From positions 1 through 64,000 of the forward strand of contig NZ_SMKO01000013.1 in assembly GCF_004348685.1 (NCBI RefSeq): a stretch of DNA of 64,000 nt. The letters are read 5' to 3'. Under the pieces are notes generated by a model. The model searched no databases, had not been told where the DNA came from, and saw nothing but the letters and a program-made list of their open reading frames with translations. Below, in pieces: positions 14,124 to 58,807 of the stretch; the first letter of the stretch is position 1, and each line of letters begins with the position of its first letter. The stretch is from Nonomuraea deserti. Its GTDB lineage: Bacteria > Actinomycetota > Actinomycetes > Streptosporangiales > Streptosporangiaceae. Position numbers and translations under genes: made by a program.

Positions 14124-14150
14124 ACCATCGAAAACGACCGAGGGGTGCTC

Positions 14151-14606: not shown

Positions 14607-14617
14607 GTGGTCGTACG

Positions 14618-16339: not shown

Positions 16340-16440
16340 GAAGCTGTTCCGTCTAGTGGGTGGGGAGAGCCGGCCGAGGCGCCCGCACGCGGTGGGCCGC
16401 GACGTTCGGGCCGGGCAGGTGGCGTGCCGGGACGGGTGCG

Positions 16441-16659
16441 TCAGGCACGGGCGTTCACCGCGGTCAGGGTGGCGCGCAGGCCCTGGAGGTTGCGGCGCGC
16501 GTACTCGAGCGGGGTGAGGCGGGACTGCAGGGCGGCGTGGGGGAAGAAGCCGTAGTACTCGAGGGTGCTTCCCAGGAAGCCCGAGATCGCGGCCTTCCTG
16601 GGATGGTTGATGGTTCCGGAGGTACTGGCCGAGTGGGGGGCCGATGTCGTGGCGGACAT
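16441..16659 (-). CDS. Small fused ORF: MFS N-terminal stub joined to TIM-barrel-type C-terminus
   Basis: This 72-aa frame has an excellent ribosome site (AAAGGAG, 6 nt before the ATG at 16659). Residues about 20-39 ([19 protein letters not shown]) look like the start of an MHS-type MFS transporter. The rest ([17 protein letters not shown]...) resembles the C-terminus of a xylose-isomerase-like TIM-barrel protein such as dehydroshikimate dehydratase. I interpret it as an in-frame deletion fusion of two adjacent genes. A similar fusion sits at 34795-35001. The gap 16340-16440 to the FAD dehydrogenase holds nothing recognised. Whether a protein is made is unknown. Confidence 0.5.
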
Positions 16660-40522: not shown

Positions 40523-40625
40523 GATCGAAATCTCCTCTCACCTGTGCACTCATCATGGGAAGCCGGGTTGATACATTCGCGATGCGTCCGCTATGGATGG
40601 ATATGCGGCGCTGGGGGAGGTGAGG

Positions 40626-43490
40626 GTGGGCGTACGGTTCGGTGTTCTCGGTCCCGTTCAGGTCATGGCCGACGGCCGGGAGCTGACCGGCCTGGCGCCG
40701 CGTCACCGTGCGGTGCTGGCGTACCTGCTGCTGCACGCCCGCACTGTGCTCAGCGCCGACCAGCTGAGCGACGCGGTGTGGGGCGTGACGCCGCCGGACA
40801 CCGCCCGCGCGCAGATCCAGGCCGCCGTCACCGCCATCCGCAGGGTGCTCCGCGAAGCGGGCGAGGCGCGGCTGCTCATGACCCGCTCGGGCGGATACCA
40901 GATCGAACCGGAACAGCTCGACCTGGAGGAGTTCATCGGCCGGATGGCGGCTGTCCAGAAGGAGGCCGATCCGGACACCGCCGCCCGCCAGGTGCGCGAT
41001 GCGCTCGCGCTGTGGCGGGGCCAGCCGCTGGCGGACGTGCACGCCGACTACGTCGAGAGCGTGCGCAGCCGGCTGGAGCAGCGGCGGCTGGCCGCGATCG
41101 AGCGCCTGGCCGACCTGGAGCTGTCCCTGGGCCGGCACGAGGACCTGATCGACGAGCTGTCCGCGCACGTGGCCGCGCACCCTCTGCGTGAGCGGCTGTC
41201 GGGCCAGCTGATGCTCGCACTGCACCGCGCGGGACGGCAGGCCGACGCGCTGTCGGTGGCCAGGGCGTTCCGCGGGTCGCTGGTGGAACAGCAGGGGCTG
41301 GATCCCGGCCGGGCGTTCGTGGCGATCGAGCAGGCCGTGCTGCGGGGCGATGCGGGCCCGCAGGCCCAGCCGCGGGACAAGCCCGCTGTACGGGAGCCCG
41401 GCCGGCGGGCGAATTTCCTGCCGTACGACATCCCCGACTTCGCCGGCCGGGCCGTCGAGCTGGAGCGGATCGCCGGACTCCGGCCAGGGGCGACGATCTT
41501 GGCCATCGACGGGATGGCGGGCATCGGGAAGACCGCGCTGGCGATTCACGCCGCGCATCGGCTGGCCGGCCGGTACCCCGACGGGCAGCTGTTCGTCGAC
41601 CTGCAGGCGCACACGGCGGGGCACGAGCCGATCGAGGCGGGCGCCGCGCTGGAGACGCTGTCGCGCCAGCTCGGGGTGCCGGCCGAACGTGTTCCCTCCT
41701 CGACCGCCGCGCGGGCCGCGCTGTGGCGGGCCGAGCTCGCCCAGCGCAGGGTCGTGATCGTCCTGGACAACGCCGCCGACACGGACCACGTCAGGCCCCT
41801 GCTGCCGGGCGCCTCCGACAGCCTCGTCCTGGTCACCAGCCGCCGCCGGCTGGTCGATCTCGACGGTGCCCGCACGCTGTCCATGGACGTGCTGCCGGCC
41901 AGGGACGGCCTGCGGCTGTTCACCTCGATCGTGGGGGAACGGGCGACGGCCGAACCGAGCGCGGTCCTCGACGTGCTGCAGCTGTGCGGGTTCCTGCCGC
42001 TGGCCGTGCGGATCGCCGCCGCGCGGCTGCATCATCGCCCGCGCTGGACCGTCGGCTACCTGGCCGGCCGGCTGCGGGACGAGCGCCGCCGGCTGGCGGA
42101 GCTGTCCACCCCGGACCGGGGTGTCGCGGCCGCGTTCACCCTGTCGTACCGGCATCTGGATGCCGAGCGGCAACGGATGTTCCGGCTGCTGGGCCTGCAT
42201 CCCGGGCGCGACGTCGATGTCCACGCCGCCGCCGCGCTGGCCGGAGTGGCCTGCGACCATGCGGAGACGTTGCTGGAGGACCTGCTGGACGCCCATGTCC
42301 TGGCGCAGCACGAGCCCGGGCGGTACACGTTCCACGACCTGCTCCGCGAGCACGCGCGCGCCACCGCGTCCGCCGAGGAGACCGGTGAGGCCCGGCACGA
42401 CGCCCTGACCCGCCTGCTCGACCATTACCTGCGCACGGCGGCCGCGGCGATCGCCGTTCTCTACCCGTTCGGCGGGCTGCGCAGGCCGTCACTCGCCGAG
42501 CCGGCGACCGTGTCGTTCCAGGACGACGCCGAGGCGGGCGCGTGGCTGGATGCCGAGCGCGCCAACCTCGTCGCCGCCGGCAGCCGGGCGGCCGACGGCG
42601 ACTGGCCGGTGCACGCGGGCCGGCTGGCCACCATCGTGCATCCCTACCTCGACGGTCACGCCCACCACGCCGACGCGATCATCATGCACACGAAGGCGCT
42701 GGAGGCCGCCCGCCGTCGGGGCGACCCGGCAGGCGAGGCGCTGGCCCTGCTCGATCTGGCCTGGGTGCGCTGGCGGCAGGGCCGTTACGAGGACTCGTAC
42801 GAGGTCTGCGGGCCGGCCCTGGACCTGTGCCGCGCGGTCGGCGACCGGCTGGGCGAGTCGCGGGCGCACAACACGCTCGGCAACGTGTGCCTGCGACGGC
42901 ACGAGTACGAGCGGGCGGACCGTCATCTGGAGCAGGCCCTCGCTCTGAGCCGTGAGATCGGCAATCCCGTCGGGGAGGCCTACACGCTGAGCAGCCTCGG
43001 CGTCAGCCACCAGCGGCAGGGACGCCACCGCGCGGCGCTCGATCACCATCGCCGGGCCCTCGCGCTGCACCGCCGGCTGGGGAACCGGCGTGGTGAGGCC
43101 GGCGTGCTCGACCTTCTCGGCCAGGTCCACCGGGCGCAGGGGCAGTACGAGCGGGCCCGTGACCAGCACCGGCAAGCGCTGGAGCTCTATCGCGAGCTGG
43201 GCGGCCGGAGTGACGAGGCAGCGCCGCTCAACGGGCTGGGGGAGGCCGGCCGGTGCCTCGGCGATCACGACCAGGCCGTCGCGCGTCACTGTGACGCCCT
43301 CGCCATCGCGCGCGAGCTGGGCAACCGGGCCGAGGAGGCGCGCGCCCACGAGGGACTGGCGCGCGTCCATCACGATCGTGGCCGCGTCGACGCGGCGCGG
43401 GACCACGCGGAACGGGCCCTGCGCGTCTACGCCGACCTGGGCGTGCCCGAGGCCGCGGCGGTCGAGGCGTTCCTGGCGGAGCTCGGCTGA
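40626..43490 (+). CDS. SARP-family regulator with NB-ARC and TPR domains (AfsR-like)
   Basis: The protein has 954 aa. Residues about 1-95 are an OmpR-type winged HTH (FGVLGPVQVMADGREL), about 95-245 the bacterial transcriptional activation domain, about 270-560 an NB-ARC STAND ATPase with P-loop GMAGIGKT (about 296-303), and 690-950 a row of TPR units (HLEQALALSREIGNPVGEAY and repeats). AfsR-like proteins activate secondary-metabolism or stress genes. I chose GTG 40626, 5 nt after GGGGGAGG; ATG 40593 has no such site. The downstream MFS gene could be a target. Confidence 0.9.
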   Translation: MGVRFGVLGPVQVMADGRELTGLAPRHRAVLAYLLLHARTVLSADQLSDAVWGVTPPDTARAQIQAAVTAIRRVLREAGEARLLMTRSGGYQIEPEQLDLEEFIGRMAAVQKEADPDTAARQVRDALALWRGQPLADVHADYVESVRSRLEQRRLAAIERLADLELSLGRHEDLIDELSAHVAAHPLRERLSGQLMLALHRAGRQADALSVARAFRGSLVEQQGLDPGRAFVAIEQAVLRGDAGPQAQPRDKPAVREPGRRANFLPYDIPDFAGRAVELERIAGLRPGATILAIDGMAGIGKTALAIHAAHRLAGRYPDGQLFVDLQAHTAGHEPIEAGAALETLSRQLGVPAERVPSSTAARAALWRAELAQRRVVIVLDNAADTDHVRPLLPGASDSLVLVTSRRRLVDLDGARTLSMDVLPARDGLRLFTSIVGERATAEPSAVLDVLQLCGFLPLAVRIAAARLHHRPRWTVGYLAGRLRDERRRLAELSTPDRGVAAAFTLSYRHLDAERQRMFRLLGLHPGRDVDVHAAAALAGVACDHAETLLEDLLDAHVLAQHEPGRYTFHDLLREHARATASAEETGEARHDALTRLLDHYLRTAAAAIAVLYPFGGLRRPSLAEPATVSFQDDAEAGAWLDAERANLVAAGSRAADGDWPVHAGRLATIVHPYLDGHAHHADAIIMHTKALEAARRRGDPAGEALALLDLAWVRWRQGRYEDSYEVCGPALDLCRAVGDRLGESRAHNTLGNVCLRRHEYERADRHLEQALALSREIGNPVGEAYTLSSLGVSHQRQGRHRAALDHHRRALALHRRLGNRRGEAGVLDLLGQVHRAQGQYERARDQHRQALELYRELGGRSDEAAPLNGLGEAGRCLGDHDQAVARHCDALAIARELGNRAEEARAHEGLARVHHDRGRVDAARDHAERALRVYADLGVPEAAAVEAFLAELG

Positions 43491-45242: not shown

Positions 45243-45326
45243 ATGGGCTTCATGGGTGGACCGGATTGGCCGATTGAAGGTCAGTCCGGTCGAACGAGCT
45301 ACGTCCGGAGAAGCAGTGGCTGTTAG
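45243..45326 (+). CDS. Possible 27-aa leader peptide before sugar transferase
   Basis: ATG 45243 is preceded by AAAAGGTGA at ideal spacing. The frame encodes 27 residues ending in GC, and its TAG (45324-45326) lies 8 nt inside the next gene's start. The overlap would allow translational coupling or attenuation. There is no homology that I recognise, so it may be chance. Confidence 0.3.
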   Translation: MGFMGGPDWPIEGQSGRTSYVRRSSGC

Positions 45327-46665
45327 CGTTGGGGGCGACCGCCGGGCCGCGCGGCCGGCGGGGCGTCGGAGCTCACGACTATGGCGAGCAGCTCAGCCAC
45401 TCGTCCTGGCCGGCGTCGACCTTTTGTGCATGGCCTTCACCGCCGCCCAGGTGGGCCGGGGCATCCCGCCCGTCGTCGTCGCGGGCGTCCTGGTCGTCGT
45501 GCTCAACGGCCTCGGCCGGGTGTACGCGCCGCGGGTCCTGCCCTCCAGCCTCGACCGTGGCGGCTGGATCGCGGGATCCGGCTTCGTGGCCGCCTGCGTG
45601 GCCTTCAAGGAGTCGGCGTCGTTCGTCACGATCGCGCTGTGCGCGCTGCTCTACACCTTCCTCGCCGTGTGCGGCAGGAGCATGCTCGCCTTCGCGGTCC
45701 GCAGAGCGCACCAGTACGCACGGTCGGCGCCCACGCTGGTGATCGGCGCGGGACCGCACGGTCACCGGCTGGCGGAGAGCCTGCTCGCCCACCCGGAGTA
45801 CGGCCTGCTCCCCCTGGGCTTCCTGGACGAGGCGGCCGGAGACGACCCCGGCCTGCCCGTGCTCGGCCGCCCCAGCGAGGTCGCGCACATCATCCAGGCC
45901 TACGAGGTGCGCGCGGTGATCCTCGCGGGTCAGGGGCAGCAGCCGATCGCGCGGACGGCGCGGGCGTTGGGCTGCGACGTGTACCTCGCGCTCGACCTGA
46001 GCGAGCTGATCGTCGACTTCGTCACGCTGCGCGAGCACGTACGCGGTTTCCCGCTGCTCCGCATGCGTCCCGCCGCGCAGCACAGCGCGCTCTGGCCGCT
46101 GAAGCGGGCACTCGACATCACGATCGCGCTGACCGGCCTCATCCTGACCGCGCCCGCCCTGGCGCTCTGCGCGCTGATCATCCGCGCGGAGGTCGGCCAG
46201 AGCCCGCTGTTCCGGCAGCGGCGGGTGGGCTACCAGGGGGAGCCGATCGAGGTGATCAAGCTCAGGACCATGAAACCCGCCGACGCGCACGAGTCGGCGA
46301 CCCTGTGGAGCATCGCCCACGACAGCCGGGTCGGCCGGGTGGGCAGGCTGCTGCGCAGGACGTCGGTCGACGAGCTCCCGCAGTTGTGGAACGTTCTCAA
46401 GGGAGACATGAGCATCGTCGGCCCCCGGCCGGAACGCCCGCACTTCGTCGACGAGTTCTCCCGGACCGTTCCCGGCTACGGCCTGCGCCACCGGATGCCG
46501 GTCGGGATCACCGGGTGGGCCCAGATCCACGGCCTGCGCGGCGACACCTCGATCGAGGACCGCGCCCGTTTCGACAACCACTACATCGACGGGTGGTCCA
46601 TCGGCGCCGACATCAAGATCATGATGCGGACCCTGTGGTCCCTGCTCCGGCTGGGCGGGAGCTGA
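45316..46665 (+). CDS. Polyprenyl-phosphate sugar-1-phosphate transferase (priming glycosyltransferase)
   Basis: The protein has 449 aa. The N-terminal half has four to five helices and a CoA-binding-like/Rossmann segment (PTLVIGAGPHGHRLAESLL). The C-terminal bacterial sugar transferase domain has a membrane helix (KRALDITIALTGLILTAPAL), KLRTMK, RRTSVDELPQLWNVLKGDMS and IVGPRPERP. It loads the first sugar phosphate on undecaprenyl phosphate to begin polysaccharide assembly. GTG 45316 with GGAG 5 nt upstream is preferred; a GTG at 45256 is in frame. Confidence 0.92.
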   Translation: MAVSVGGDRRAARPAGRRSSRLWRAAQPLVLAGVDLLCMAFTAAQVGRGIPPVVVAGVLVVVLNGLGRVYAPRVLPSSLDRGGWIAGSGFVAACVAFKESASFVTIALCALLYTFLAVCGRSMLAFAVRRAHQYARSAPTLVIGAGPHGHRLAESLLAHPEYGLLPLGFLDEAAGDDPGLPVLGRPSEVAHIIQAYEVRAVILAGQGQQPIARTARALGCDVYLALDLSELIVDFVTLREHVRGFPLLRMRPAAQHSALWPLKRALDITIALTGLILTAPALALCALIIRAEVGQSPLFRQRRVGYQGEPIEVIKLRTMKPADAHESATLWSIAHDSRVGRVGRLLRRTSVDELPQLWNVLKGDMSIVGPRPERPHFVDEFSRTVPGYGLRHRMPVGITGWAQIHGLRGDTSIEDRARFDNHYIDGWSIGADIKIMMRTLWSLLRLGGS

Positions 46666-46668
46666 CCC

Positions 46669-47946
46669 TTGAAAGCCCTTCACCGACCCAGCCTCGTGGC
46701 GGCCGCGACCGTGCTCCTGACCTGCCTGCCGGCGGGGCTCGACGGCCCCTTCGCCGAGGTGCGGGTGACGGCCGCCGACGTCGCCTCCGTCGCGCTGGCC
46801 GCCGTCGCGCTCGCCCTCCTGGTCGCGGGCCCGCGCGCGGCCGAACTGCCCGCCCGCGCGCTGGTGCTCGCACCCGTCGCGGGCGCGGCCGCCATCGCCG
46901 TGCTGGCCTCGCCCGACATGCTGGCGAGCGTGCCGGGCTACCTCAGGTACGTCCAGGTGTTCGTGATCGTCCCGCTGGCCGTCATGGTGACGGTGCGCGA
47001 CCGCGCCGACGGCCTGATCGTGGGCGGGGCCGTCGTCGGCGCCGCGCTCGTGCAGGGCGTGGTCGGGTGCGTTCAGACGCTCACCGGCACCGGGGCGTCG
47101 TACGCCGGAGAGCGGGTGCGGGCCGTCGGCACGTTCGGCGCCCTCGACGTCATGGGCATGGCGAGCGTGGTCAGCTTCGGCGCGATCATCCTGCTGGGCG
47201 TGGGCCTCGCCGTACGCGGCCGGTGGCGCGCCGCCGCGCTCGCGGGCGCCGCCCTGCTCTGCGTCCCCCTCGCCCTGTCGCTCAGCCGGGGCGCCTGGCT
47301 CGCCCTGCTGTGCGCGGCACTGGTCATGCTCTTCATGCGCAGCCGGGTGCTCGCCGCCCGGGTGCTGCTCGCCGGCGCCGCCGCCGGGATCGTGCTCGTC
47401 GCCGGCCTCGGCACGGGATCGGACGTGCTGGGACGGCGGGTCGCCTCGATCGCCTCCGCCGTGACCCAGCCCGACCAGTCGCTGAGCGACCGGTACACCC
47501 TGTGGCGCACCGCCGCCGGCATGTGGCTCGACCACCCGCTGACCGGGGTCGGCCCGCGCCGGTTCGCGGAACTGCGCGACACGTACGCGCCCATCGAGCT
47601 GTCGTCCGGCAGCGACACCGACGACCCGGTGCACGGCTTCCAGCGCCGGCCGCTGCTCTCCCCGCACAACATGTACCTGCTGACCCTCAGCGAACAGGGC
47701 CTGCTCGGGCTGGCCGCCCTGGGCGTCTGCCTGGGGGCCATGGCGTGGTGGGCGGTCCGAGGGGGCGCGGTGATCGCGGCCGGGCTGCTGACCTGGCAGC
47801 TGGCCGACTTCGTCTACGGCGACATCGGCGGCCCTCCGACGCTGGTCATGTCGGTCGTCCTGGGACTGGTCCTGTCGCGCGTCACCAGGGGCGCGGCGCT
47901 GCCGCCGCTGAGCGGCGCCCCGGGCGGGCACGGCGGGGACCGATGA
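46669..47946 (+). CDS. O-antigen ligase / Wzy-type polymerase family protein
   Basis: The 425-aa protein has about ten to eleven helices. A long external loop (about 265-330) carries the Wzy_C-like pattern (LWRTAAGMWLDHPLTGVGPR and SPHNMYLLTLSEQGL). The family polymerises or ligates lipid-linked repeat units on the outer face of the membrane. TTG 46669 is the start, directly after the transferase stop, and its end overlaps the flippase. Confidence 0.82.
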   Translation: MKALHRPSLVAAATVLLTCLPAGLDGPFAEVRVTAADVASVALAAVALALLVAGPRAAELPARALVLAPVAGAAAIAVLASPDMLASVPGYLRYVQVFVIVPLAVMVTVRDRADGLIVGGAVVGAALVQGVVGCVQTLTGTGASYAGERVRAVGTFGALDVMGMASVVSFGAIILLGVGLAVRGRWRAAALAGAALLCVPLALSLSRGAWLALLCAALVMLFMRSRVLAARVLLAGAAAGIVLVAGLGTGSDVLGRRVASIASAVTQPDQSLSDRYTLWRTAAGMWLDHPLTGVGPRRFAELRDTYAPIELSSGSDTDDPVHGFQRRPLLSPHNMYLLTLSEQGLLGLAALGVCLGAMAWWAVRGGAVIAAGLLTWQLADFVYGDIGGPPTLVMSVVLGLVLSRVTRGAALPPLSGAPGGHGGDR

Positions 47947-49448
47947 CGACGGCCACCTCGCCCGCGGTCAAGGCCGTCAGCGTCACCGCGCTGCTCATCG
48001 GGCTCGGCTCGCTGCTCGGCTTCGTCCGCGACCTGCTGCTGGGCACGACGTTCGGGGCCGACGCCGGCACCGACGCGTTCCTCGTCGCCTGGACGATCCC
48101 GGAGACCGCGGCGCCCCTGCTCATCGAGGGTGCGATGGCCTTCGTGCTGGTCCCGCTGTTCAGCCGGGCGGTGGAGGCGGGCGACGACCCGCGGGTCCTG
48201 GTGTCGTCGACGTTGCCGTATCTGTGTCTCGCGCTCGCGGCGCTGAGCGCGGTGGCCGCCGCGGGCGCGCCGTGGCTGGTCGGCGTGCTCGCCCCCGGCA
48301 TACCGAGGGCCGACCTCGCGGCCGACTGCATGCGTGTCGCCTCGGTCACGATCCTGACGTTCGGGCTGGCCGGGTACCTCAGCGCGGCACTCCGCTCGCA
48401 CCAGGCGTTCGCGCCGCCGGCCGCCATCTACGTCGCCTACAACCTGGGGATCATCGTCTGCCTGTGGTCGCTGCGCGACCAGGGCGCGTACGGCGCCGCG
48501 GTGGGCGTGGCCGTGGGCGGCGTGGGCATGGTGCTCGTCCAGGCCCCGGCGTTCGTCCGGCGCTTCGGCCCGCCCCGCCGCCCCACCCGCGGGGTGCCGC
48601 TGCCCCTGGCCGCGTTCCTGCCGATCGCGATCTTCACGCTCGCGCGCCAGAGCCAGGTCTTCATCGAGAGGTTCGTCGGTTCCTCGTTGCCCGAGGGGTC
48701 GATCTCGCACCTCAACTACGCGCAGAAGATCGCGCAGGTGCCGATGGTGCTGTCGCTGATCGTGGCGACGGTGACCTTCCCCGACCTGGCCCGCGCCGTC
48801 GCCGCCGGTGACGGCGCGCAGGCGCGCAGGCGGCTGGTCGGGGACCTGGTCGCCGCCTCGGCGATCGTGCTGCCCGCCACGGCGGCGCTGCTGGTCTGCG
48901 CTCCCGACGTCGTGGCCGTCCTGCTGCGGTACGGCGCGTTCACCGAGGCGGACACCGCCGCCACCGCGCGGATCATGCAGGTGTACACGCTGGGGCTGCT
49001 CGGCCAGGCGGTGGTCGGGGTCGTGTGCCGTACGTACTTCTGCGGGCCCCGCGCCTCCTGGTACCCGGCGCTCGCGATGGCCGCGGGGCTGGCCGCGACG
49101 GCCGTGCTGGCCCGGCCGGCGTGGGGGGTCACGGGGCTGGCCGCGGCCAACGCGGCCGGGATCACGCTGACCGGCGTGGTGCTGCTGGCCGGGCTGCGCA
49201 GGCGCGTCGTCGCCCTGCCGCTGCGCGCCGCCGCCACGCCCGTCGGCGTGCTGCTCCTGGCCGCCGCGGCGGCCGCCGGAGCGGGCTGGGCGACGCGGCC
49301 GCTGCTGGCGGACCTGCCGCGGCCGGCGGCCCTGGGCCTGACCTGCGCCGCGATCGCCGCCGCCTTCTGCGCCGTCGCGGCCCTCGCGGGGGCCACGACC
49401 ACGCTCACCGAAATCACCCGCTCGATCAGGACGCGAGGTCGCGGATGA
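47943..49448 (+). CDS. MurJ/MviN-family lipid-linked oligosaccharide flippase
   Basis: The 501-aa protein has fourteen or so helices with MurJ features (SLLGFVRDLLLGTTFGADAG, ALRSHQAFAPPAAIYVAYNL, LNYAQKIAQVPMVLSLIVAT, LLRYGAFTEADT). In this cluster it probably exports the lipid-linked repeat unit in place of a Wzx flippase. The ATG overlaps the preceding stop. Confidence 0.85.
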   Translation: MTTATSPAVKAVSVTALLIGLGSLLGFVRDLLLGTTFGADAGTDAFLVAWTIPETAAPLLIEGAMAFVLVPLFSRAVEAGDDPRVLVSSTLPYLCLALAALSAVAAAGAPWLVGVLAPGIPRADLAADCMRVASVTILTFGLAGYLSAALRSHQAFAPPAAIYVAYNLGIIVCLWSLRDQGAYGAAVGVAVGGVGMVLVQAPAFVRRFGPPRRPTRGVPLPLAAFLPIAIFTLARQSQVFIERFVGSSLPEGSISHLNYAQKIAQVPMVLSLIVATVTFPDLARAVAAGDGAQARRRLVGDLVAASAIVLPATAALLVCAPDVVAVLLRYGAFTEADTAATARIMQVYTLGLLGQAVVGVVCRTYFCGPRASWYPALAMAAGLAATAVLARPAWGVTGLAAANAAGITLTGVVLLAGLRRRVVALPLRAAATPVGVLLLAAAAAAGAGWATRPLLADLPRPAALGLTCAAIAAAFCAVAALAGATTTLTEITRSIRTRGRG

Positions 49449-50146
49449 CCGCCATGCCGTACGTGCTCATGTACCACTCCGTCGAGAAGTGTGACGACGA
49501 TCCCTTCCAGATCACCGTCTCGCCCGACCGCTTCGACCGGCAGCTGCGCTGGCTGGCCCGGTGCGGCCTGACCGGCGTCTCCATGCGCGAGCTGCTGCGC
49601 GCCCACGCGGAGGGTGACGCCGGGCGCCTGGTCGGGCTCACTTTCGACGACGGGTACGCCGACTTCCTCGGCGAGGTCGTCCCCGCGCTGCTGGAGCGCG
49701 GGTTCACCGCCACGGTCTTCGTGGTGTCCGACCTGATCGGCGAGCACAACGCCTGGGACGCCGCGGGGCCGCGCAAGCGCCTCATGGACGCCGACGGCGT
49801 GCGCCGGGCTGCGCGGCAGGGCATGGAGGTCGGCTCGCACTCGGCCGGGCACCGCTCGCTGACCGGCCTGAGCGAGGCCGACCTCTGGCACGAGGTGACG
49901 GCCGGCAAGGCGGCGCTGGAGAACCTGCTCGGCGAGCCGGTGAGCGGGTACTGCTACCCGTACGGGCACGCCGGCGCGCGCGAGGTGGACGCCGTCCGCA
50001 GGGCCGGCTACGGCTACGGCTGCGCGATCTGGAAGTCCGAGCTCAGCGGCCGCTACGCGCTGCCGCGTACCTACGTCGGCGAGCGGGACGGCGCGCTGCG
50101 GTTGCGCGCCAAGCGGATGCGTCACCGGGTCCGGTGGGGCTGGTGA
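49445..50146 (+). CDS. Polysaccharide deacetylase (NodB-type, CE4)
   Basis: The 233-aa protein has the metal/catalytic motif TFDDGYADF, the HSAGHRSL zinc-binding motif and CYPYGH. CE4 enzymes remove N- or O-acetyl groups from sugars. No signal peptide is seen, so it may act on cytoplasmic lipid-linked precursors. The ATG overlaps the flippase stop, and the stop overlaps the GT4 gene. Confidence 0.88.
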   Translation: MTAMPYVLMYHSVEKCDDDPFQITVSPDRFDRQLRWLARCGLTGVSMRELLRAHAEGDAGRLVGLTFDDGYADFLGEVVPALLERGFTATVFVVSDLIGEHNAWDAAGPRKRLMDADGVRRAARQGMEVGSHSAGHRSLTGLSEADLWHEVTAGKAALENLLGEPVSGYCYPYGHAGAREVDAVRRAGYGYGCAIWKSELSGRYALPRTYVGERDGALRLRAKRMRHRVRWGW

Positions 50147-51243
50147 AGGTCCTGCATGTCATCACCGGTCTGGCGGCGGGCGGCGCGGAGCAGCAGTTGC
50201 GCTTCCTGCTGCCGCACCTGCGGGCCCGGTGCGACGTCGCGGTCCTCACCGGCTCCGGCGTGGTCGCGGACGCCATCGCGCGTACCGGCGTGCCCGTCCA
50301 CCAGGTCGGGATGCGCGGCAACCGGGACCTGCGGGCCGTCGGGCGGCTGGCCCGGCTCATACGCAGGCACCGCTACGAAGTGGTGCACACCCATCTGTAC
50401 CGCGCCTGCGTGTACGGCAGGCTGGCCGCGCGGCTGGCGAACGTCCCCGCGATCGTGGCGACCGAGCACTCGATCGGCCGCGAGCACATCGAGGGGCGCC
50501 GCCTCACCCGCCCCGTCAGGGCGCTGTACCTCGCCAGCGAGCTGCTCGGGCACCTGACCGTGGCCGTCTCGCCGACCGTGGCCGACCGGCTGGCCGGCTG
50601 GGGCGTGCCGCGCTCGCGCATCGTGGTGATCCCCAACGGCGTCGACGGCGGTGCGTTCGGCTTCGACGCGGGGCTGCGCCGGCGCACCCGTCAGCGGCTG
50701 GGCGTGCCCGCGCACGCCTTCGTGATCGGCGGGGTCGGCCGGCTGGAGCCGGGCAAACGTTTCGACGCGCTGATCGAGGCCCTGCCGGCGCTCGGATCCG
50801 CCGTCCTGCTCCTGGTCGGCTCGGGTTCGTGCGAGCCGCGCCTGCGGCAGCTGGCCGGTGCGGTGGGCGCGGGACACCGGGTGATCTTCGCCGGCGAGTC
50901 GACCGACGTCCGGGCGATGTTGTCGGCGATGGACGTGCTGGCCGCGCCGTCGGCGGAGGAGACGTTCGGGCTGGCGGTCGTCGAGGCGCTCGCCGCGGGC
51001 CTCCCGGTCCTGTACGACACCTGCCCGGCCGTCGACGACCTGCCGCCGGGTTCGGCGCCCGGGGCCAGGCGCGTCCCGCCGGACCGGCTCGCCGCCGAAC
51101 TGGCCGCGCTCGCCGCCCGCCCGCCCGGTCGCCTGACCCCGCCCGACGCCGTCCGCCTCTACGACATCCGCCGCCAGGCCGACCGGCTGGAGTCGCTCTA
51201 CCTGCGCCTGCTGGGCGCCGCACCCACGGAGGATCAACGATGA
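50143..51243 (+). CDS. Glycosyltransferase family 4
   Basis: The 366-aa GT-B-fold enzyme has the N-terminal acceptor loop VITGLAAGGAEQQL, and the donor-binding half contains GGVGRLEPGKRFDALI and the E-x7-E motif (SAEETFGLAVVEALAAGLPV). GTG 50143 overlaps the deacetylase stop and is preferred to GTG 50134. Sugar specificity is unknown. Confidence 0.88.
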   Translation: MKVLHVITGLAAGGAEQQLRFLLPHLRARCDVAVLTGSGVVADAIARTGVPVHQVGMRGNRDLRAVGRLARLIRRHRYEVVHTHLYRACVYGRLAARLANVPAIVATEHSIGREHIEGRRLTRPVRALYLASELLGHLTVAVSPTVADRLAGWGVPRSRIVVIPNGVDGGAFGFDAGLRRRTRQRLGVPAHAFVIGGVGRLEPGKRFDALIEALPALGSAVLLLVGSGSCEPRLRQLAGAVGAGHRVIFAGESTDVRAMLSAMDVLAAPSAEETFGLAVVEALAAGLPVLYDTCPAVDDLPPGSAPGARRVPPDRLAAELAALAARPPGRLTPPDAVRLYDIRRQADRLESLYLRLLGAAPTEDQR

Positions 51244-51815
51244 CATGGACCCGGGCCCGCATCATGGGCGTGCTCGCGCGATGGTGGCTGCCGCTGTCCC
51301 TGACGCTGGGGGCGGCGGGCGGGGCCGCGTACGCCGTGGCCAGGGACGCCGTCTACGCCGCCGACGCCTACGTCGTGGTGGTGGCGGGTGGCGACCCGGC
51401 GCAGGCGATCGACTTCGCCTCCGCCTACGCCCGGATCTCCGCCCACCCCGGCCTGCTTACCGGCGACGAGACCGAATGGGGCAGCCTGAGCGTGGCGGCC
51501 TCCCCGGACGCCCCGCTGGTGCGTCTCACGTCCGTGGCGCCCACCGGGTGGGAGGCCGCGGACCGCGCCAACCGGGCGGCCACCGCGCTGATCACGTACG
51601 CCAACAGGCACGCCACCGACACCCGCGTGCGGCTGGCGCCCTTCGCCAGCGCGTCCATCCCGACCCACCCCTCGGCCCCGGTGCCGCTGGTCAGCGTGGC
51701 CGTCGGCGCTTTCGGGGCGGGCCTGGTCGCCGGCCTGGTCCGCCTGGCCGCGCCGCAGGCGCTCCGGCAGGCGCGGCGCGAGCCTGCGCCGGTGCTGAGC
51801 GGGGCGGAGGCGTGA
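51240..51815 (+). CDS. Wzz-like polysaccharide chain-length/export protein
   Basis: The 191-aa protein has one helix near the N-terminus (about 16-35) and one near the C-terminus (about 145-170) with an external domain between, the layout of Wzz/PCP co-polymerases. There is no tyrosine-kinase domain. Similarity is to topology and position more than to motifs. Confidence 0.65.
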   Translation: MTWTRARIMGVLARWWLPLSLTLGAAGGAAYAVARDAVYAADAYVVVVAGGDPAQAIDFASAYARISAHPGLLTGDETEWGSLSVAASPDAPLVRLTSVAPTGWEAADRANRAATALITYANRHATDTRVRLAPFASASIPTHPSAPVPLVSVAVGAFGAGLVAGLVRLAAPQALRQARREPAPVLSGAEA

Positions 51816-52975
51816 GCGCCGCGACGCCCGGCGCGTCCACGTCGAACAGCGCGCCGCCGCTCTCGCCCTCGCGCACCGCGCGGATCACGCTGCGGGTCGT
51901 GCCGCGGAACGCGCTCGCGGGGCTGTCGGAGGACTGGGCCGACCTGTACGCGCGCAGCTCGGCGGCCACGCCGTTCCAGTCGTACAGCTGGCTCTGCTCC
52001 TGGTGGCGGGCCTATGGAACCCCGGGGCGGCTGCGGGTGTTCCTGGCGTACCGGGGCGGGCGGCTGGTCGCGGCGGCGCCCCTCAGGCTGGAGTACCGGC
52101 TGGGCTGCCGGGTGCTGACGCCCGTCGGCGGCGGGCAGTCCGACTTCACGGACATCATGGTGGACGACGCCGAGGGGGACGCGGGCCTGCGCGAGTTGCG
52201 CGCCGGGCTGCTCGCCCAGCCGGGCTGGGACGTGATCGACCTGCCCGAGGCGCGGCCGGGCGCGGCCGTCCTGAGGCTGGCGGGGCTGTGGGGCGGAAGG
52301 GCCTGGACCCTGCCCGCGTCCACCTGCCTGCAGCTGCCGGGACGGCCGATCGAGCAGGTGATGGCCGGGCTCAACAGCCGGCGGGCGCGCCGGCTGCGGA
52401 CGGCGTTGCGCAAGCTCGACGCGATGGACCTGTCGGTGGACGTGGTCGAGCCGGACCGCGTCGAGCACTCGGTGACCGAGCTGCTGCGGCTGCACACCCT
52501 GCAGTGGGAGAGCCGGGGGATCAACGTGCAGCACACGCAGCCGCAGTTCATGGACCACCTGACGCGGGCCACGCGGTCCCTGGTGGTGGAGGACCGCGCG
52601 GTGTTGAAGGAGTTCAGGGTACGCGGGCGGCTGCGGGCCTGCGATCTGACCGTGGTCGGCAAGGACTTCGTGGGCGGCTACCTGTACGGCGCCGATCCGG
52701 AGCTGCGCGCCGAGGCCGACGTCCTCACGATGTTGCTGCGCGACAACCTGGAGACGACCCACCGGCTGGGCAGGCCGGTGCTGAGCCTGCTGCGCGGCGA
52801 CGAGCCCCACAAGGCGAAGTTCGGCTGCGAGGCGGTCGTCAACCAGCGGGTGATGCTCGGCCGCGGCGTCCGGTCCGCCGCCTACGCCGCGAGCGCCGGC
52901 GCCCGCGCGGCGGGCCAGGAACTGCTGAAGCGGCGCTGCCCGCGGCTGGCGGAGAGGTTCGCGTCATGGCGGTGA
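51812..52975 (+). CDS. CelD/BioF2-like GNAT-fold acyltransferase
   Basis: This 387-aa protein of the PF13480 type has FQSYSWLCSWWRAYG near the start, a double GNAT core, LQWESRGI and the conserved late segment LSLLRGDEPHKAKFG. Such proteins occur in cellulose and exopolysaccharide clusters and transfer acyl or aminoacyl groups to sugars. The GTG at 51812 overlaps the Wzz-like stop. Confidence 0.82.
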   Translation: MSAATPGASTSNSAPPLSPSRTARITLRVVPRNALAGLSEDWADLYARSSAATPFQSYSWLCSWWRAYGTPGRLRVFLAYRGGRLVAAAPLRLEYRLGCRVLTPVGGGQSDFTDIMVDDAEGDAGLRELRAGLLAQPGWDVIDLPEARPGAAVLRLAGLWGGRAWTLPASTCLQLPGRPIEQVMAGLNSRRARRLRTALRKLDAMDLSVDVVEPDRVEHSVTELLRLHTLQWESRGINVQHTQPQFMDHLTRATRSLVVEDRAVLKEFRVRGRLRACDLTVVGKDFVGGYLYGADPELRAEADVLTMLLRDNLETTHRLGRPVLSLLRGDEPHKAKFGCEAVVNQRVMLGRGVRSAAYAASAGARAAGQELLKRRCPRLAERFASWR

Positions 52976-54153
52976 CGCCGCGCGTCCTGCACGTCACGCA
53001 GCCGGTGGACGGCGGCGTCGGCGCCTACGTGGCGACGGCCGCCGCCGATCAGGCGCGGCGGGGCTGGCGGGTCGCGGTCGCCTGCCCGCCGGCCGGTCCG
53101 CTGGCCGGCGAGCTGGCCGGCCTGGGGGTGCCCTGCCTGGCCTGGGCGGCGACCCGCGCGCCGGGGCTCGCCGACGCCGGGCAGGCGGCCCGGCTGGCGC
53201 GGATCGTCAGGGAGTTCGGCCCCGACGTGGTCCACCTGCACTCGTCCAAGGCCGGGCTGGCGGGCAGGGCAGCGCTGCGGGGACGGGTGCCCACGCTCTT
53301 CCAGCCGCACGGCTGGTCGTGGCTGGCGGCCCGCGGCGCGCTCGCCCCCGCGGCGCTGGGCTGGGAACGGCTGGCCGCGCGCTGGGCCGACCTGGTGATC
53401 TGCGTCGGTGCGGGCGAAGCGGCGCTGGCCAGGCGGCACGGCGTGCCCGCCGAGCTCGTGGTGGTGCGCAACGGCGTGGACCTGCGCCGGTTCCGGCCCG
53501 CCGGCCCGGGGGAGCGCGCGGCGGCCCGCGCGGGCCACGGCATCCCGGAGGGGACGCCGCTGGCGGTCTGCGTCGGCAGGGTCACCCGGCAGAAGGGCCA
53601 GGACCTGCTGCTGTCGGCGTGGGAGCGGGTGGCCGCGCGCGACGGCGCGGCCCGGCTGGTCGTCGTCGGCGACGGCCCGCTGCTGCCCGCGCTGCGGGCG
53701 CGGGCCGTGCCGCGCGTTCACTTCGCCGGCGACGTGGCCGACGCCAGGCCCTGGTACGTCGCGGCCGACGTGGTGGTGCTGCCCTCCCGCTGGGAGGGGT
53801 TGCCGTTCACGGCGCTGGAGGCGCTGGCCACGGGACGCTCCCTCATCGCCTGCGGGGTGCCGGGGATCTCGGAGCTGGTGTCCGCCGGAGTCGGCGCGGT
53901 CGTCGCGCCCGGCGACGTGGCGGCGTTGGCCGAGGCGCTGCTGCTCAGGCTCGGGAGCCCTTCGCTCGCCGCCGCGGAGGGGTCGGCCGCCGTGGCGCTG
54001 GCGGGCGGGTTCGACGTGGGCCGGTCGATGGACGCGCTCGCCTCGTGCACGCTCGGGCTGCTGGGGGTCGGTACGGGGAACGGGCGGCGATGCAGCCGCT
54101 CGCGGAAGACCTCCGCCGAGCGCGGGTTCGATGAGCACTGCCAGATGCCGTGA
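52966..54153 (+). CDS. Glycosyltransferase family 4 (second)
   Basis: This 395-aa GT-B enzyme has N-terminal TQPVDGGVGAYVATAA and VVHLHSSKAGLAGR. Donor-side motifs are CVGRVTRQKGQDLLL and PSRWEGLPFTALEALATGRS. GGAGAGG precedes ATG 52966, which lies inside the previous gene. The last 25 or so residues are antisense to the hydrolase gene and unlike the family, so the natural stop may have been lost. The 3' end overlaps the opposite gene by 436 bp. Confidence 0.85.
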   Translation: MAVTPRVLHVTQPVDGGVGAYVATAAADQARRGWRVAVACPPAGPLAGELAGLGVPCLAWAATRAPGLADAGQAARLARIVREFGPDVVHLHSSKAGLAGRAALRGRVPTLFQPHGWSWLAARGALAPAALGWERLAARWADLVICVGAGEAALARRHGVPAELVVVRNGVDLRRFRPAGPGERAAARAGHGIPEGTPLAVCVGRVTRQKGQDLLLSAWERVAARDGAARLVVVGDGPLLPALRARAVPRVHFAGDVADARPWYVAADVVVLPSRWEGLPFTALEALATGRSLIACGVPGISELVSAGVGAVVAPGDVAALAEALLLRLGSPSLAAAEGSAAVALAGGFDVGRSMDALASCTLGLLGVGTGNGRRCSRSRKTSAERGFDEHCQMP

Positions 54154-55058
54154 GGACAGTAATCGGAGATCGAGTGATAGAGCACGTTGTGACTGTCGAT
54201 CCAGTCGAGCATCCGGCGCACGTAGTCGGGCCGGTCGCCGTGGCGGAACAACCCCCACTCGGGGAACGAGATGGCCTTGCCGTGCTGGGCGGCGAAGTCG
54301 GCGTGCGCCTGCAGCCCGTACGGCTGGTTGACGTAGTCGGAGAAGTCCTGGCCGGGCCCCTGGTCGTAGCTGTCCATGCCGATGATGTCGACGACGTCGT
54401 CACCCGGGTAGCACTCCGTCCAGGGGATCGCGTCGAGCCCGCGGCTGGGCGCGAAGTCGAAGCGGAACCGCTGGCCGGGCGCCGCGCGCATGGCCGCCAC
54501 GATGCGCCGCCAGTACTGCTTCCACGCCTCCGGGTTCGGCGCGCAGCGGCTGGAGTAGGTCGTGCCGTTCATCTCCCAGCCGAGCACGATGATCGTGTCG
54601 CCGGCGCCGGCGGAGACCAGCTTCCTGCCGAGCTCCCCGAAATGGTGGTCGTGGTCGCCGCGCGCGCCCTCGGCCAGCCGCTGCGCCACTTCCGCGTCGG
54701 GCATCCCGGACTCGTTCGGAGCGATCATCGGCACGTTCAGCGCCAGGACCCGGTCCGGCTCGGCGGCTCGCCAGCGGGTCCAGGGGCCGAGGACGAACTC
54801 GGCCCCCTCGATCGACTCCCAGGTCTCGCCGGGCAGGTAGGTGCGTCCCACCGTCACGCTGCTCTTCAACCAGGACTCGAAGCGTTCCAGGTGCACGGGG
54901 CCGCGCGAGTCGGAGCCCAGGAAGACACCCAGCGCCGCGCCGTGACCTCGCCGGTCGTCCGGCGGGTCGTCGCCCCATGCGCCCAGGCCCAGCCACACCG
55001 CCGCCGCGATCGTGACGATCGCCAGCGAACAGCGCAGATAGCCCTTTCTCATCACCAT
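53718..55058 (-). CDS. GH26-like glycoside hydrolase, membrane-anchored or secreted
   Basis: The 446-aa protein has an N-terminal hydrophobic anchor (about 8-27). The TIM-barrel domain (about 40-335) has candidate acid/base E162 (GWEMNGT) and nucleophile E267 (SFPEWGLF), spaced as in GH26 mannanases/glucanases. It may trim the polysaccharide made by the flanking genes. Residues after about 335 (Ser/Pro/Ala/Thr-rich) are encoded entirely antisense to the GT4 gene and are doubtful as a functional tail. I prefer ATG 55058; 55088 is possible. Confidence 0.8.
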   Translation of the reverse strand: MVMRKGYLRCSLAIVTIAAAVWLGLGAWGDDPPDDRRGHGAALGVFLGSDSRGPVHLERFESWLKSSVTVGRTYLPGETWESIEGAEFVLGPWTRWRAAEPDRVLALNVPMIAPNESGMPDAEVAQRLAEGARGDHDHHFGELGRKLVSAGAGDTIIVLGWEMNGTTYSSRCAPNPEAWKQYWRRIVAAMRAAPGQRFRFDFAPSRGLDAIPWTECYPGDDVVDIIGMDSYDQGPGQDFSDYVNQPYGLQAHADFAAQHGKAISFPEWGLFRHGDRPDYVRRMLDWIDSHNVLYHSISDYCPHGIWQCSSNPRSAEVFRERLHRRPFPVPTPSSPSVHEASASIDRPTSNPPASATAADPSAAASEGLPSLSSSASANAATSPGATTAPTPADTSSEIPGTPQAMRERPVASASSAVNGNPSQREGSTTTSAATYQGLASATSPAK

Positions 55059-55175
55059 CGCATATCCCCCGTCGGAGTTTTCCCTCATTCCCTACACCCC
55101 GAATAACGGCCGATCGGATACTCAACCTGCGATTTGCCGGATCAATAGCTTTTCGTAAGGAGTAGGACGTAAATC

Positions 55176-56336
55176 ATGCTCGATTGCACCGTCCCGGCGC
55201 TCGTGCTGCGACTGGACTCCAATGTCTTTCATCACGGGACGCTCGGCGCCATTCGCTCGCTCGGCAGGGCCGGAGTGGAGGTGCACGGGCTCGTCGAGGG
55301 CGCGCACGCGCCGACGTACCGCTCCCGGTATCTGGCGCGGATGCACACGTGGTTGCGCGGCCGGGACACCGTTCAGGCGCTCACGCGGGCCGCCGACCGC
55401 ATCGGACGCCGGGCCGTGCTCCTGACGCTGGACGACGCGGGGGCCATCGCCGTCGCCGAGCACGCGGCCGATCTGCGTCCCTTCTACCTCATGCCCGACC
55501 AGACGCCCGGCCTGCCGCGCACGCTGGCGGACAAGCGCCTGCTGCACCAGCTCTGCTCCACGCTCGGCGTCGTCCAGCCGGAGACCCGCCTGATCACGGG
55601 CGCAGGCGACGCGGCGGCGGCCGTCGCCGACTTCGGGCTGCCGCTGGTCGCCAAGTGGGCGCAGCCGTGGCTCCTGCCCGCGGGCACGGGGCTGCGCAGG
55701 ACCAGTCTGGTGCGCAGGGGCCAGCAGGTGGAGCGGCTGCTCCAGCACGTGGAGGGGCGCGAGCTGCTGTTCCAGCGCTTCGTGCCGGGAGGGCCGGGCG
55801 CGGACTGGTTCTTCCACGGCTATTTCGACGAGAACTCGCGCTGCCTGTACGGGGGCGCGGGACGGAAGGAGCGCGCCTACCCGAGAGGCGCCGGGCTCAC
55901 CACCTGGGGACGGTGGCTGCCCAACCCGGTCGTGGAGGGCGCGGCGCGCGAGCTCGCGGTGACACTGGGGTATCGCGGGGTCGTCGACATCGACTTCCGC
56001 CACGACCCGGCGGCGAACATCTACCACCTGCTGGACTTCAATCCCCGGCTCGGCGCCCAGTTCCGCCTGTTCACCGACCGCGACGGCCTCGACCTCGTGC
56101 GCGCCGCCCACCTGCATCTCTCCGGCCGGTGGACGACGCGGGGCCGGGCCGGTCACGGACGGACGTACGTGGTGGAGAACTACGACCTCTTCACGGCCGG
56201 CCCGAAAAGCCTGCGCGCCCTGTGCGCGGCCGATGAATACGCCTGGTTGTCGGCCGACGACCTCCGGCCTTTCGTGGGAATGGCCGGACAGACGATAAAG
56301 CGTGGTTTCGCCCGGCTCGCCGGGCCGCGGAAATGA
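55176..56336 (+). CDS. ATP-grasp family ligase
   Basis: The 386-aa carboxylate-amine/thiol ligase type has the ATP-grasp lysine strand (GLPLVAKWAQPWLL), the central FQRFVPGGPGADWFFHGY, and the metal-binding segment VDIDFRHDP with LLDFNPRLGAQFRL (D and N ligands). It probably attaches an amino acid or similar group to a carboxylate, perhaps on the sugar or its carrier. AAGGAG lies 14 nt before ATG, slightly far. It precedes an FAD oxidoreductase in the same direction. Confidence 0.85.
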   Translation: MLDCTVPALVLRLDSNVFHHGTLGAIRSLGRAGVEVHGLVEGAHAPTYRSRYLARMHTWLRGRDTVQALTRAADRIGRRAVLLTLDDAGAIAVAEHAADLRPFYLMPDQTPGLPRTLADKRLLHQLCSTLGVVQPETRLITGAGDAAAAVADFGLPLVAKWAQPWLLPAGTGLRRTSLVRRGQQVERLLQHVEGRELLFQRFVPGGPGADWFFHGYFDENSRCLYGGAGRKERAYPRGAGLTTWGRWLPNPVVEGAARELAVTLGYRGVVDIDFRHDPAANIYHLLDFNPRLGAQFRLFTDRDGLDLVRAAHLHLSGRWTTRGRAGHGRTYVVENYDLFTAGPKSLRALCAADEYAWLSADDLRPFVGMAGQTIKRGFARLAGPRK

Positions 56337-56349
56337 CGATGGAGGAAAT

Positions 56350-57564
56350 TTGCGCACGCCGGTGATTGACGTGGCGATCGTGGGCGCGGGCCCGTACGGG
56401 CTTTCCGTGGCGGCTCACGCGCTGGGCGCGGGACTCGACGTCCGGATATTCGGAAAACCGATGCGGGCGTGGGAATTCCACATGCCCCGTGGAATGCTGC
56501 TGAAGTCGGAGGCGGCCGCGTCCCATCTCGGCGACCCCGAGCGGCGCTACGGCCTCGACGCCTTCCACCGCTACGCGTACGGCGAGCCGGTGCCCGTGGA
56601 GCGGTTCGCCGCGTACGGCAAGTGGTTCCGCGCGCGGGCGGTGGGCCAGGCCCTGGACGAGTCGGAGGTGACGGCCGTCGGCTCCGAGGGGCACCTGTTC
56701 GCGCTCTCGTTGTCGTCGGGGGCGTCCGTGCTGGCCAGGAGCGCGGTGCTGGCCGTGGGGCATCTGCCCTTCGCCCACCGGCCCGGCGTCCTGGCCGGGC
56801 TGCCGCCCGAGGCGGCCACGCACAGCTGCGACCATCACGATCTGGGCGCGTTCGCGGGCCGCGACGTGACCGTGCTGGGTGCGGGGCAGTCGGCGCTGGA
56901 GACCGCGACGCTGCTGGCGGAGGCGGGGGCGAGCGCCCGCATCGTGGCCAGGGCGGACGCGCTGGCCTGGAACGACGTCCCAGCGGAGCGGCGCTCGCTC
57001 CTCGACCGCGTACGGGCGCCCCGGTCCAGGCTCGGCGGCGGCTGGCCCTCCGTGGCCTGGTCGCGGTTGCCGGGCGCGATCAGGTACCTGCCGGACGCGA
57101 CCCGCGACCACATCGTGCGCAACACGCTCGGACCCGCCGGCTCCTGGTGGTTGCGGGACCGCTTCGACGGCGCCGTCAAGGTGATCCTGGGCACGCGGCT
57201 GACCGGCGCCGAGCACGGTGACGGCGTCCGGCTGCACCTGAGGGACCTGTCGGGAGCGGCCGGCACGCTCGACACCGAGCACGTGATCGCGGCCACCGGC
57301 TACCGGGTGGACGTGGAGAGGATCGCGATACTCCGGGAGGACCTGCGGCGCGCGGTGGCGTCGTCGGGCCCCGCGCCGCGGCTCAGCGCCACCTTCGAGA
57401 CGCCCGTCGCCGGGCTCCACCTGGTCGGGCTGGCGGCGGCGGCCACGTTCGGGCCTTCCATGCGGTTCGTGTGCGGGTGCGACTTCGCCGCCCGCCGCGT
57501 GACCAGGGGTCTCGTGAGCCGCCTGCGCGGAGCGCGGCGTACGGCGAAATTGCCGATGTCTTGA
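56350..57564 (+). CDS. FAD/NAD(P)-binding oxidoreductase (flavin monooxygenase-like)
   Basis: The 404-aa protein has an N-terminal FAD motif (VAIVGAGPYGLSVAAHALGAG), a second nucleotide motif (VTVLGAGQSALETATLLAEAG) and late ATGYRVDVER, the pattern of the ornithine/lysine-hydroxylase and thioredoxin-reductase-like group. The start is TTG 56350 after GGAGGAAA; GTG 56362 is the alternative. Fourteen nt separate it from the ATP-grasp gene, so the two likely act on one product. Confidence 0.85.
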   Translation: MRTPVIDVAIVGAGPYGLSVAAHALGAGLDVRIFGKPMRAWEFHMPRGMLLKSEAAASHLGDPERRYGLDAFHRYAYGEPVPVERFAAYGKWFRARAVGQALDESEVTAVGSEGHLFALSLSSGASVLARSAVLAVGHLPFAHRPGVLAGLPPEAATHSCDHHDLGAFAGRDVTVLGAGQSALETATLLAEAGASARIVARADALAWNDVPAERRSLLDRVRAPRSRLGGGWPSVAWSRLPGAIRYLPDATRDHIVRNTLGPAGSWWLRDRFDGAVKVILGTRLTGAEHGDGVRLHLRDLSGAAGTLDTEHVIAATGYRVDVERIAILREDLRRAVASSGPAPRLSATFETPVAGLHLVGLAAAATFGPSMRFVCGCDFAARRVTRGLVSRLRGARRTAKLPMS

Positions 57565-57631: not shown

Positions 57632-58807
57632 ATGGCTTTTCGCGTGATGGTGGCCTGCACGGCCACGGCGTTCGTCGGCGTCTCGGGGGTCGCTCCCGTC
57701 GCGCGTGCCGACAGCGCGCCATCGTCGTTCACCAACTCGACCACGGTGGCCTCGGGCCGCACGCCGTCCGGTGTGACGGTGACGGTGCGTAAGGAGATGA
57801 TCGGGACGGCGCGGGTGGCGTCGGCCGAGGCGTCGTCCGCCAACCCCGCGGCGCCCGACGACGAATACCTGGTCCCGGCCAACACCAAGACGTCCGCGGG
57901 TTTCGTCGACCTCTACGAGGGCTTCGCGGCCGAGGACGGCGAGTGGAGCGACGTCGCCCTGCTGACGTTCACGTTCTCCAGGCCCGTACGCGACCCGCGG
58001 CTGCACGTGTTCGGCACGGGCGGCGCCTCGGGCGAGTCCAGGAAGCGCCGCGACGACTACTGGCCCGCCGTCGAGCTGGTCGGCGGCGTACCTGCCAGGC
58101 CCACCTTCTCGTGGGCGGCCGGGTTCCCCGGGTACCGCGTCACGAGCGACGCGATCACCCCGGAGAGGGTCTACTCCGCCCGTTCCACGACCTGCGGGGT
58201 CGTCTACACCTGCGGCACGGCCAAGGTGAACGGCACGGTCAGCACGTTCACGGTCAAGCTGAAGGCGCATGACGTGCGCCACGGGCGTGGCGGGTCCATG
58301 CCGCAGTTGTGGGCAGCGTTCAAGCTGTCGCTGGCCGAGGACGTCTCCGACGCGCCCACCTCGTACGGCGTGGCCTCCCACGCGATCACCGACTCCCATC
58401 TGGGGTGGTCCGTCAGCGACGACCACACCGGCGCGGTGAGCATGACCCCGCGCGCCCTGCCCCTGGACACGGGCGACGACGCCATGGAGGCCGGGGAGGA
58501 GCGGAGCGTGCTCAGCGGCCGGAGGTGCAGGATCTCGGTGCCCGTGACCGCGGGATCGCCGTCGAAGGTCGCCGGCTGGATCGACTTCGACCGTGACGGC
58601 CGCTTCGACGCCGACGAGCGGGCCACCACGCTGGCCGACGAGGGCGCCACGGACGCCGAGCTGACCTGGCTCCTTCCCGAGTCGCTGCCGGCCGGCCCCG
58701 TCTGGATGCGGCTGCGCCTGGTCGCAAGGGCGGAGTCCGTGGACTCGGCGACGGGCTGGGCCGACAGCGGCGAGGTCGAGGACCACCAGATCCAGTTCGT
58801 CGAGTGA
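57632..58807 (+). CDS. Secreted protein with C-terminal GEVED domain
   Basis: The 391-aa protein has a Sec signal peptide (cut after about ARA near 26). The middle part is a beta-rich domain with a Cys pair (TTCGVVYTCG). The end is the GEVED module (GWIDFDRDGRFDADE, then WADSGEVEDHQIQF), common in cell-surface proteins and often calcium-binding in style. The function is unknown. AGCAAG-type sequence precedes ATG, and the ribosome site is GGGGGAGC. Confidence 0.82.
   Translation: MAFRVMVACTATAFVGVSGVAPVARADSAPSSFTNSTTVASGRTPSGVTVTVRKEMIGTARVASAEASSANPAAPDDEYLVPANTKTSAGFVDLYEGFAAEDGEWSDVALLTFTFSRPVRDPRLHVFGTGGASGESRKRRDDYWPAVELVGGVPARPTFSWAAGFPGYRVTSDAITPERVYSARSTTCGVVYTCGTAKVNGTVSTFTVKLKAHDVRHGRGGSMPQLWAAFKLSLAEDVSDAPTSYGVASHAITDSHLGWSVSDDHTGAVSMTPRALPLDTGDDAMEAGEERSVLSGRRCRISVPVTAGSPSKVAGWIDFDRDGRFDADERATTLADEGATDAELTWLLPESLPAGPVWMRLRLVARAESVDSATGWADSGEVEDHQIQFVE

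Follow-up and report, generated by a model that had tools for sequence, protein, structure and literature searches.

We examined a gene cluster for a putative surface polysaccharide in the actinomycete Nonomuraea deserti. It lies within a stretch of 64,000 nucleotides, referred to here as the window (contig NZ_SMKO01000013.1, positions 1 to 64,000; contig C44 of our analysis, from a genome of 10.7 Mb). Eleven genes occupy positions 45256-57564 of the window, and the closest named relatives of the cluster are from Nonomuraea. Start codons are predictions, picked by overlap and homology, and protein families were assigned with Pfam and NCBIfam profiles. The genes are as follows, with a linked candidate outside the core given last; pLDDT is the predicted local distance difference test score.

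45256..46665, forward strand: pgt, polyprenyl-phosphate sugar-phosphate transferase (priming); PF02397, E 4e-60; TIGR03025 above cut-off; D372 and E373 kept in 95% or more of 66 copies
46669..47946, forward strand: wzy, Wzy/O-antigen-ligase-like polymerase; PF04932 (Wzy_C), E 2e-22; present in 20 of 99 relatives
47943..49448, forward strand: murJ, MurJ-family flippase with a likely Wzx role; PF03023, E 9e-57; below the TIGR01695 cut-off
49445..50146, forward strand: ce4, polysaccharide deacetylase; PF01522, E 2e-24; D68, D69, H132 and H136 conserved (88 copies)
50134..51243, forward strand: gt4a, GT4 glycosyltransferase; PF13439/PF00534; conserved across clusters
51240..51815, forward strand: wzz-like, chain-length protein without a kinase domain; weak TIGR01006 and PF02706 matches in orthologues only; slot conserved
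51812..52975, forward strand: celD-like, GNAT/FemAB-type acyltransferase; PF13480 (Acetyltransf_6), E 7e-17
52966..54153, forward strand: gt4b, GT4 glycosyltransferase; PF13692, E 2e-33
53718..55088, reverse strand: gh26, exported GH26-like glycanase, divergent from atpg; PF02156, E 7e-6 (above cut-off); mannanase matches in the PDB; E172 and E277 conserved (93 copies)
55176..56336, forward strand: atpg, ATP-grasp ligase; model pLDDT 91, fold of PurK, PurT, biotin carboxylase and 2pn1; K120, K160, D271, D273, D287 and N289 invariant
56302..57564, forward strand: fad, flavin monooxygenase-like protein related to N-hydroxylases; model pLDDT 89; matches DesB, putrescine N-hydroxylase, KtzI, PvdA and SidA; GQSA-E motif
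57632..58807, forward strand: gev, GEVED-domain protein, probably exported; PF20009, E 2e-15

The eight genes from pgt to gt4b lie on one strand; pgt and wzy are 3 bp apart, four of the following junctions overlap by 4 bp and two by 10-13 bp. If fad starts where we place it, it shares 35 bp with atpg, but in most relatives it begins ∼13-16 residues later. The gev gene follows fad in most Nonomuraea clusters and in Thermocatellispora. The gh26 and gt4b frames overlap convergently over 436 bp (53718-54153), the Ser/Ala/Pro-rich tail of GH26 being antisense to gt4b; long overlapping frames occur in relatives too and may be a mere effect of high GC content. A sequence-only reading of this DNA that preceded our analysis had listed the cluster genes, all of which we found at the coordinates it gave and could support by profiles, orthologues or a structural model. 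The genes it named were correct, but it had left out the two GT4 genes at 50134-51243 and 52966-54153.

That reading had also proposed a Wzy-type system with a MurJ-family flippase, which the Pfam and NCBIfam families bear out, and we predict with high confidence that the cluster encodes a polysaccharide pathway of Wzx/Wzy type in which a MurJ-family protein would be the flippase. The pgt product passes both PF02397 and TIGR03025 and has the conserved catalytic DE residues of a priming transferase. The wzy product matches PF04932, a family that covers ligases as well as polymerases, and it weakly resembles TfpM, RfaL and the XrtA-associated ligase. These matches would also suit a glycan made for transfer to proteins or the cell wall instead of a free polymer, with the Wzy_C protein serving as the ligase and the chaplins discussed below as possible acceptors. 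However, the conserved Wzz-like chain-length protein fits polymerisation, and we regard transfer by a ligase as improbable. The Wzz-like protein has no Pfam match of its own; its orthologues match TIGR01006 (E 9e-9) and PF02706 (E 0.002), neither of which reaches its curated cut-off.

In the conserved clusters a MurJ-family protein occupies the position of Wzx, the repeat-unit flippase of the MOP superfamily. The copy in the window scores 209.9 bits against the TIGR01695 equivalog cut-off of 235.55, short of assignment to the housekeeping family. When aligned to E. coli MurJ it retains R24, D25, D39 and E57, and R18, R52, D269 and R270 are replaced by S, A, Q and K, respectively; identical or similar residues stand at these positions in nearly all of 39 cluster copies. 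We take R18, R24, D39, R52 and R270 to be important residues of the E. coli protein. In our own alignment the strongest MurJ match of the genome (contig C139, likely the housekeeping gene) likewise differs from the E. coli protein at R52 and R270, so that only R18 clearly separates the two copies. The residues fit a flippase for another lipid-linked sugar, the residue argument being weak by itself. We did not retain the housekeeping lipid II flippase as an identity for the cluster protein, since the stronger match is that on C139 and the copy studied here belongs to a patchy accessory cluster. MurJ and Wzx-type flippases are known to be partly interchangeable (PMC11706664). Three more priming transferases were seen in the source genome (G000; contigs C107, C448 and C61), and C448 may hold another polysaccharide cluster because a MurJ-family match is found there too.

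Comparison across actinomycetes showed that the gene order is kept over several genera, namely Nonomuraea, Planomonospora, Planobispora, Thermocatellispora, Actinomadura and Streptomyces, and such identical order in relatives places the arrangement far from chance. By scanning genome contigs we confirmed 424 relatives of the ATP-grasp protein; the best 80 of the 424 came from these genera and from Thermoactinospora. The core order pgt-wzy-murJ-ce4-gt4a-wzz-gh26(reverse)-atpg-fad was present in nearly all stretches long enough to contain it, and the celD-like and gt4b genes vary. The former is absent from Planomonospora, Planobispora and some Streptomyces, and the latter is not at the corresponding slot in Streptomyces. 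Within Nonomuraea the distribution of the cluster is patchy. ATP-grasp relatives from outside the class (36-38% identity) lacked the conserved cluster, and no ATP-grasp relative was found in plasmid records.

The last two genes are tied to the rest of the cluster by their distribution. Of 99 relatives, 22 had atpg and 21 had fad, with shared gene order around them in the cluster-bearing genomes. A separate search for Wzy was positive in 20 of the 99, and 19 of these 20 carry both atpg and fad, as against one of the 79 Wzy-negative genomes (Fisher p ∼4e-18, kinship ignored). The exception, genome G022 (L175, contig C9), carries the core, pgt to gh26, but neither atpg nor fad is present within the stretch read. 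From this co-occurrence and joint absence we conclude that the pair belongs to the cluster, as had been suggested from the sequence, and behaves as a two-gene module; G022 offers a natural experiment on the contribution of the pair. The sequence-only reading had named absence of the two genes from cluster-bearing relatives as an outcome that would speak against it, and our counts show the opposite.

The cluster ATP-grasp proteins form one clade (100/100 support) with sub-clades that largely track taxonomy, and four copies that we call type II form another. In 150 Streptomyces genomes we identified 65 places with a cluster-type ATP-grasp gene (type I, ∼47-57% identity) and 43 with distant copies (∼35-40%); fad adjoins 52 of the former and 39 of the latter. 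The type II ATP-grasp/FAD (flavin adenine dinucleotide) pairs examined, for example L162, L163, L166 and L170 in Streptomyces, lie beside fumarylacetoacetase and nuo genes or polyprenyl-synthase genes, with no polysaccharide core. The distant copies L164 and L171 are located in other polysaccharide-like neighbourhoods. Such cluster-free pairs had escaped the sequence-only reading, as had the wide conservation of the cluster and its position beside chaplin and rodlin genes in Streptomyces.

The putative decoration enzymes have intact motifs. The metal-binding and catalytic residues of the CE4 protein are present, and it has no obvious signal peptide; the two conserved glutamates of the GH26-like protein are, from their position, the expected catalytic residues. 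The ATP-grasp protein has no Pfam match, and its model resembles PurK, PurT, biotin carboxylase and the carbamoyl-phosphate-synthase-like structure 2pn1, with the three-domain fold, the ATP-binding lysines and the metal-binding acidic and Asn residues of the superfamily, these residues being invariant. The modelled fold and the motifs give the class of enzyme, not its substrate.

For the FAD protein, the profiles returned FAD/NAD(P) oxidoreductase families (Pyr_redox_2 and Lys_Orn_oxgnase). Its best full-length matches in the PDB are N-hydroxylases of cadaverine, putrescine, ornithine and lysine, with which it shares the fold and the GxGP, GxGQSAxE and ATG(Y/F) motifs; identity to DesB, KtzI, PvdA and SidA is 15-20%. 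The earlier suggestion of an N-oxidising enzyme is thus backed by both fold and motifs. It is also conceivable that the flavoprotein is a reductase or other oxidoreductase, and that the product of the pair is a precursor that has nothing to do with N-oxidation, since YpdA/Bdr and thioredoxin reductases match it as well (template-modelling score by target 0.80 for YpdA) and its best NCBIfam match is YpdA, far below the cut-off. However, the best full-length structures are those of N-hydroxylases, and the GQSA-E and ATG(Y/F) motifs fit them, whereas the matched thioredoxin reductases carry GDSA in place of GQSA. We therefore consider a reductase possible though rather unlikely, and favour an N-hydroxylase-like flavin monooxygenase on the strength of the model; because YpdA-type reductases match as well, N-hydroxylation is at most the favoured activity. 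An amide-linked or N-oxidised decoration of the glycan is put forward as a plausible speculation, and if it were true an N-oxidised surface glycan would be unusual chemistry.

A pathway can be proposed from these families. Pgt would place the first sugar phosphate on polyprenyl phosphate, and the GT4 enzymes would extend the repeat unit. The cytosolic CE4 enzyme may then free an amine for re-acylation by the CelD-like enzyme, perhaps with a part for the ATP-grasp ligase, and the flavoprotein might oxidise an amine in the group so added. The MurJ-family protein would flip the repeat unit, Wzy and the Wzz-like protein would polymerise it, and the exported GH26 protein would trim the polymer. The order of these steps is what we infer from the gene content.

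In Streptomyces, chaplins and rodlins, which belong to the water-repellent coat that covers aerial hyphae and spores, are encoded after fad, and examples were confirmed with PF03777 and NF041022. Thirty-four named Streptomyces loci had 5 kb or more of downstream sequence; tblastn placed a chaplin at 30 of them, and a motif search found a chaplin or rodlin at 30. In 40 further cluster-bearing Streptomyces genomes, chaplin-domain matches lay within 12 kb downstream in at least 18 and within 25 kb upstream in at least 29; chaplins were present on both sides in at least 17 and on one side or more in at least 30. The type II pairs of the same genomes served as controls, and among the matches listed none of 15 was near a chaplin, although a few of these controls are near contig ends. 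Chaplin-like matches lay 3-4 kb downstream at four Actinomadura loci; PF03777 confirmed two of the four, and at one of these two a sortase is adjacent. An LPXTG-anchored protein with no recognisable chaplin domain takes the place of the chaplin in S. violaceoruber NRRL S-981, and several small secreted proteins that are similar come after it (L113:12597-13466, 14098-16526). The chaplin and rodlin genes are targets of sigma-BldN (PMC4125116, PMC4255298). In S. coelicolor the chaplin genes chpG, chpF, chpA and chpD are SCO2699, SCO2705, SCO2716 and SCO2717 (PMC5650626), and from the gene numbers alone the cluster would be expected at SCO2706-SCO2715. No developmental promoter motif could be assigned in the aligned upstream regions of the cluster.

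On this evidence we think it fairly probable that sporulating actinomycetes use this Wzx/Wzy-type pathway to make a surface polysaccharide, most likely a sugar constituent of the surface of aerial hyphae or spores. Confidence in the role in aerial growth is moderate, the argument being one from position in relatives and not from Nonomuraea itself. Several observations weigh against it. No chaplins adjoin the cluster in Nonomuraea, Planomonospora or Planobispora (Nonomuraea genomes do carry chaplin-like domains, away from the cluster), the chaplin counts ignore kinship, and fad is missing at 13 of the 65 type I loci in Streptomyces, a few of them at contig ends. Because of this last result, oxidation would not be essential. 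The cluster could instead be an ordinary vegetative exopolysaccharide or capsule locus, with the chaplin linkage in Streptomyces an inherited neighbourhood of no functional meaning. The absence of adjoining chaplins and the patchy distribution in Nonomuraea agree with such a locus, and because the ATP-grasp sub-clades largely track taxonomy, inherited position could explain much of the chaplin count. Inheritance accounts less well for the Streptomyces genomes (at least 17 of 40) in which chaplins flank the cluster on either side, or for chaplin-like genes beside the cluster again in Actinomadura, a different family; a vegetative locus therefore seems to us a minority possibility, if a serious one. 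We return to the aerial-surface polysaccharide as the preferred explanation, under which the cluster inside the chaplin/rodlin locus is a concrete, deletable candidate for a dedicated glycan of the aerial-hypha or spore sheath. A more specific version, in which the ATP-grasp ligase and flavoprotein would give the sheath polysaccharide N-hydroxylated (e.g. hydroxamate-type) amides and chaplins and rodlins would assemble on or with it, is a long shot.

Several known systems resemble the cluster in part. The Caulobacter holdfast system (HfsE, HfsH and HfsK) shares a priming transferase, a cytosolic CE4 enzyme and a GNAT acyltransferase; HfsK, of GNAT/FemAB type like the CelD-like protein, is proposed to acylate the amines that HfsH, a CE4 enzyme, uncovers, and the portion of the description available to us includes no mention of an ATP-grasp/FAD pair (PMC5362036). 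The holdfast models fit poorly (pgt against HfsE, 170 of 750 bits; ce4 against HfsH, 26 of 400 bits). The imp/wps genes of Actinoplanes missouriensis (PMC12691653, PMC13390465) are likewise of Wzx/Wzy type and are needed for a reproductive surface of an actinomycete, the sporangium matrix; wps-1 has a GH26 gene, and wps-3 has a deacetylase, a BioF2-like acyltransferase and an FAD monooxygenase. However, the gene sets differ, ATP-grasp and MurJ are not mentioned, and as judged from published descriptions alone we set aside identity with this system on gene content. Exopolysaccharide clusters associated with the exosortase XrtA share the kinds of priming transferase, ligase-like protein and deacetylase, but the corresponding models were again not reached (TIGR03013, 196 of 393 bits; TIGR03006, 31 of 276 bits; TIGR03097 far below cut-off).

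The sequence-only reading could not match the glycan to a known polymer, and we too found no characterised polymer that fits. We found no description of the cluster in the open-access literature, most subscription papers being outside the search so that an earlier notice is possible, and no study of SCO2703, SCO2704 or SCO2706-SCO2715. The cluster is widely conserved, and its pathway apparently unstudied.

Elsewhere in the window, a gene for a large AfsR/SARP-like regulator (BTAD, NB-ARC and TPR domains) at 40593-43490 lies upstream of a major facilitator superfamily transporter gene; these two genes are not among the conserved neighbours of the cluster. A transfer-messenger RNA (tmRNA) gene is located at 7026-7409.

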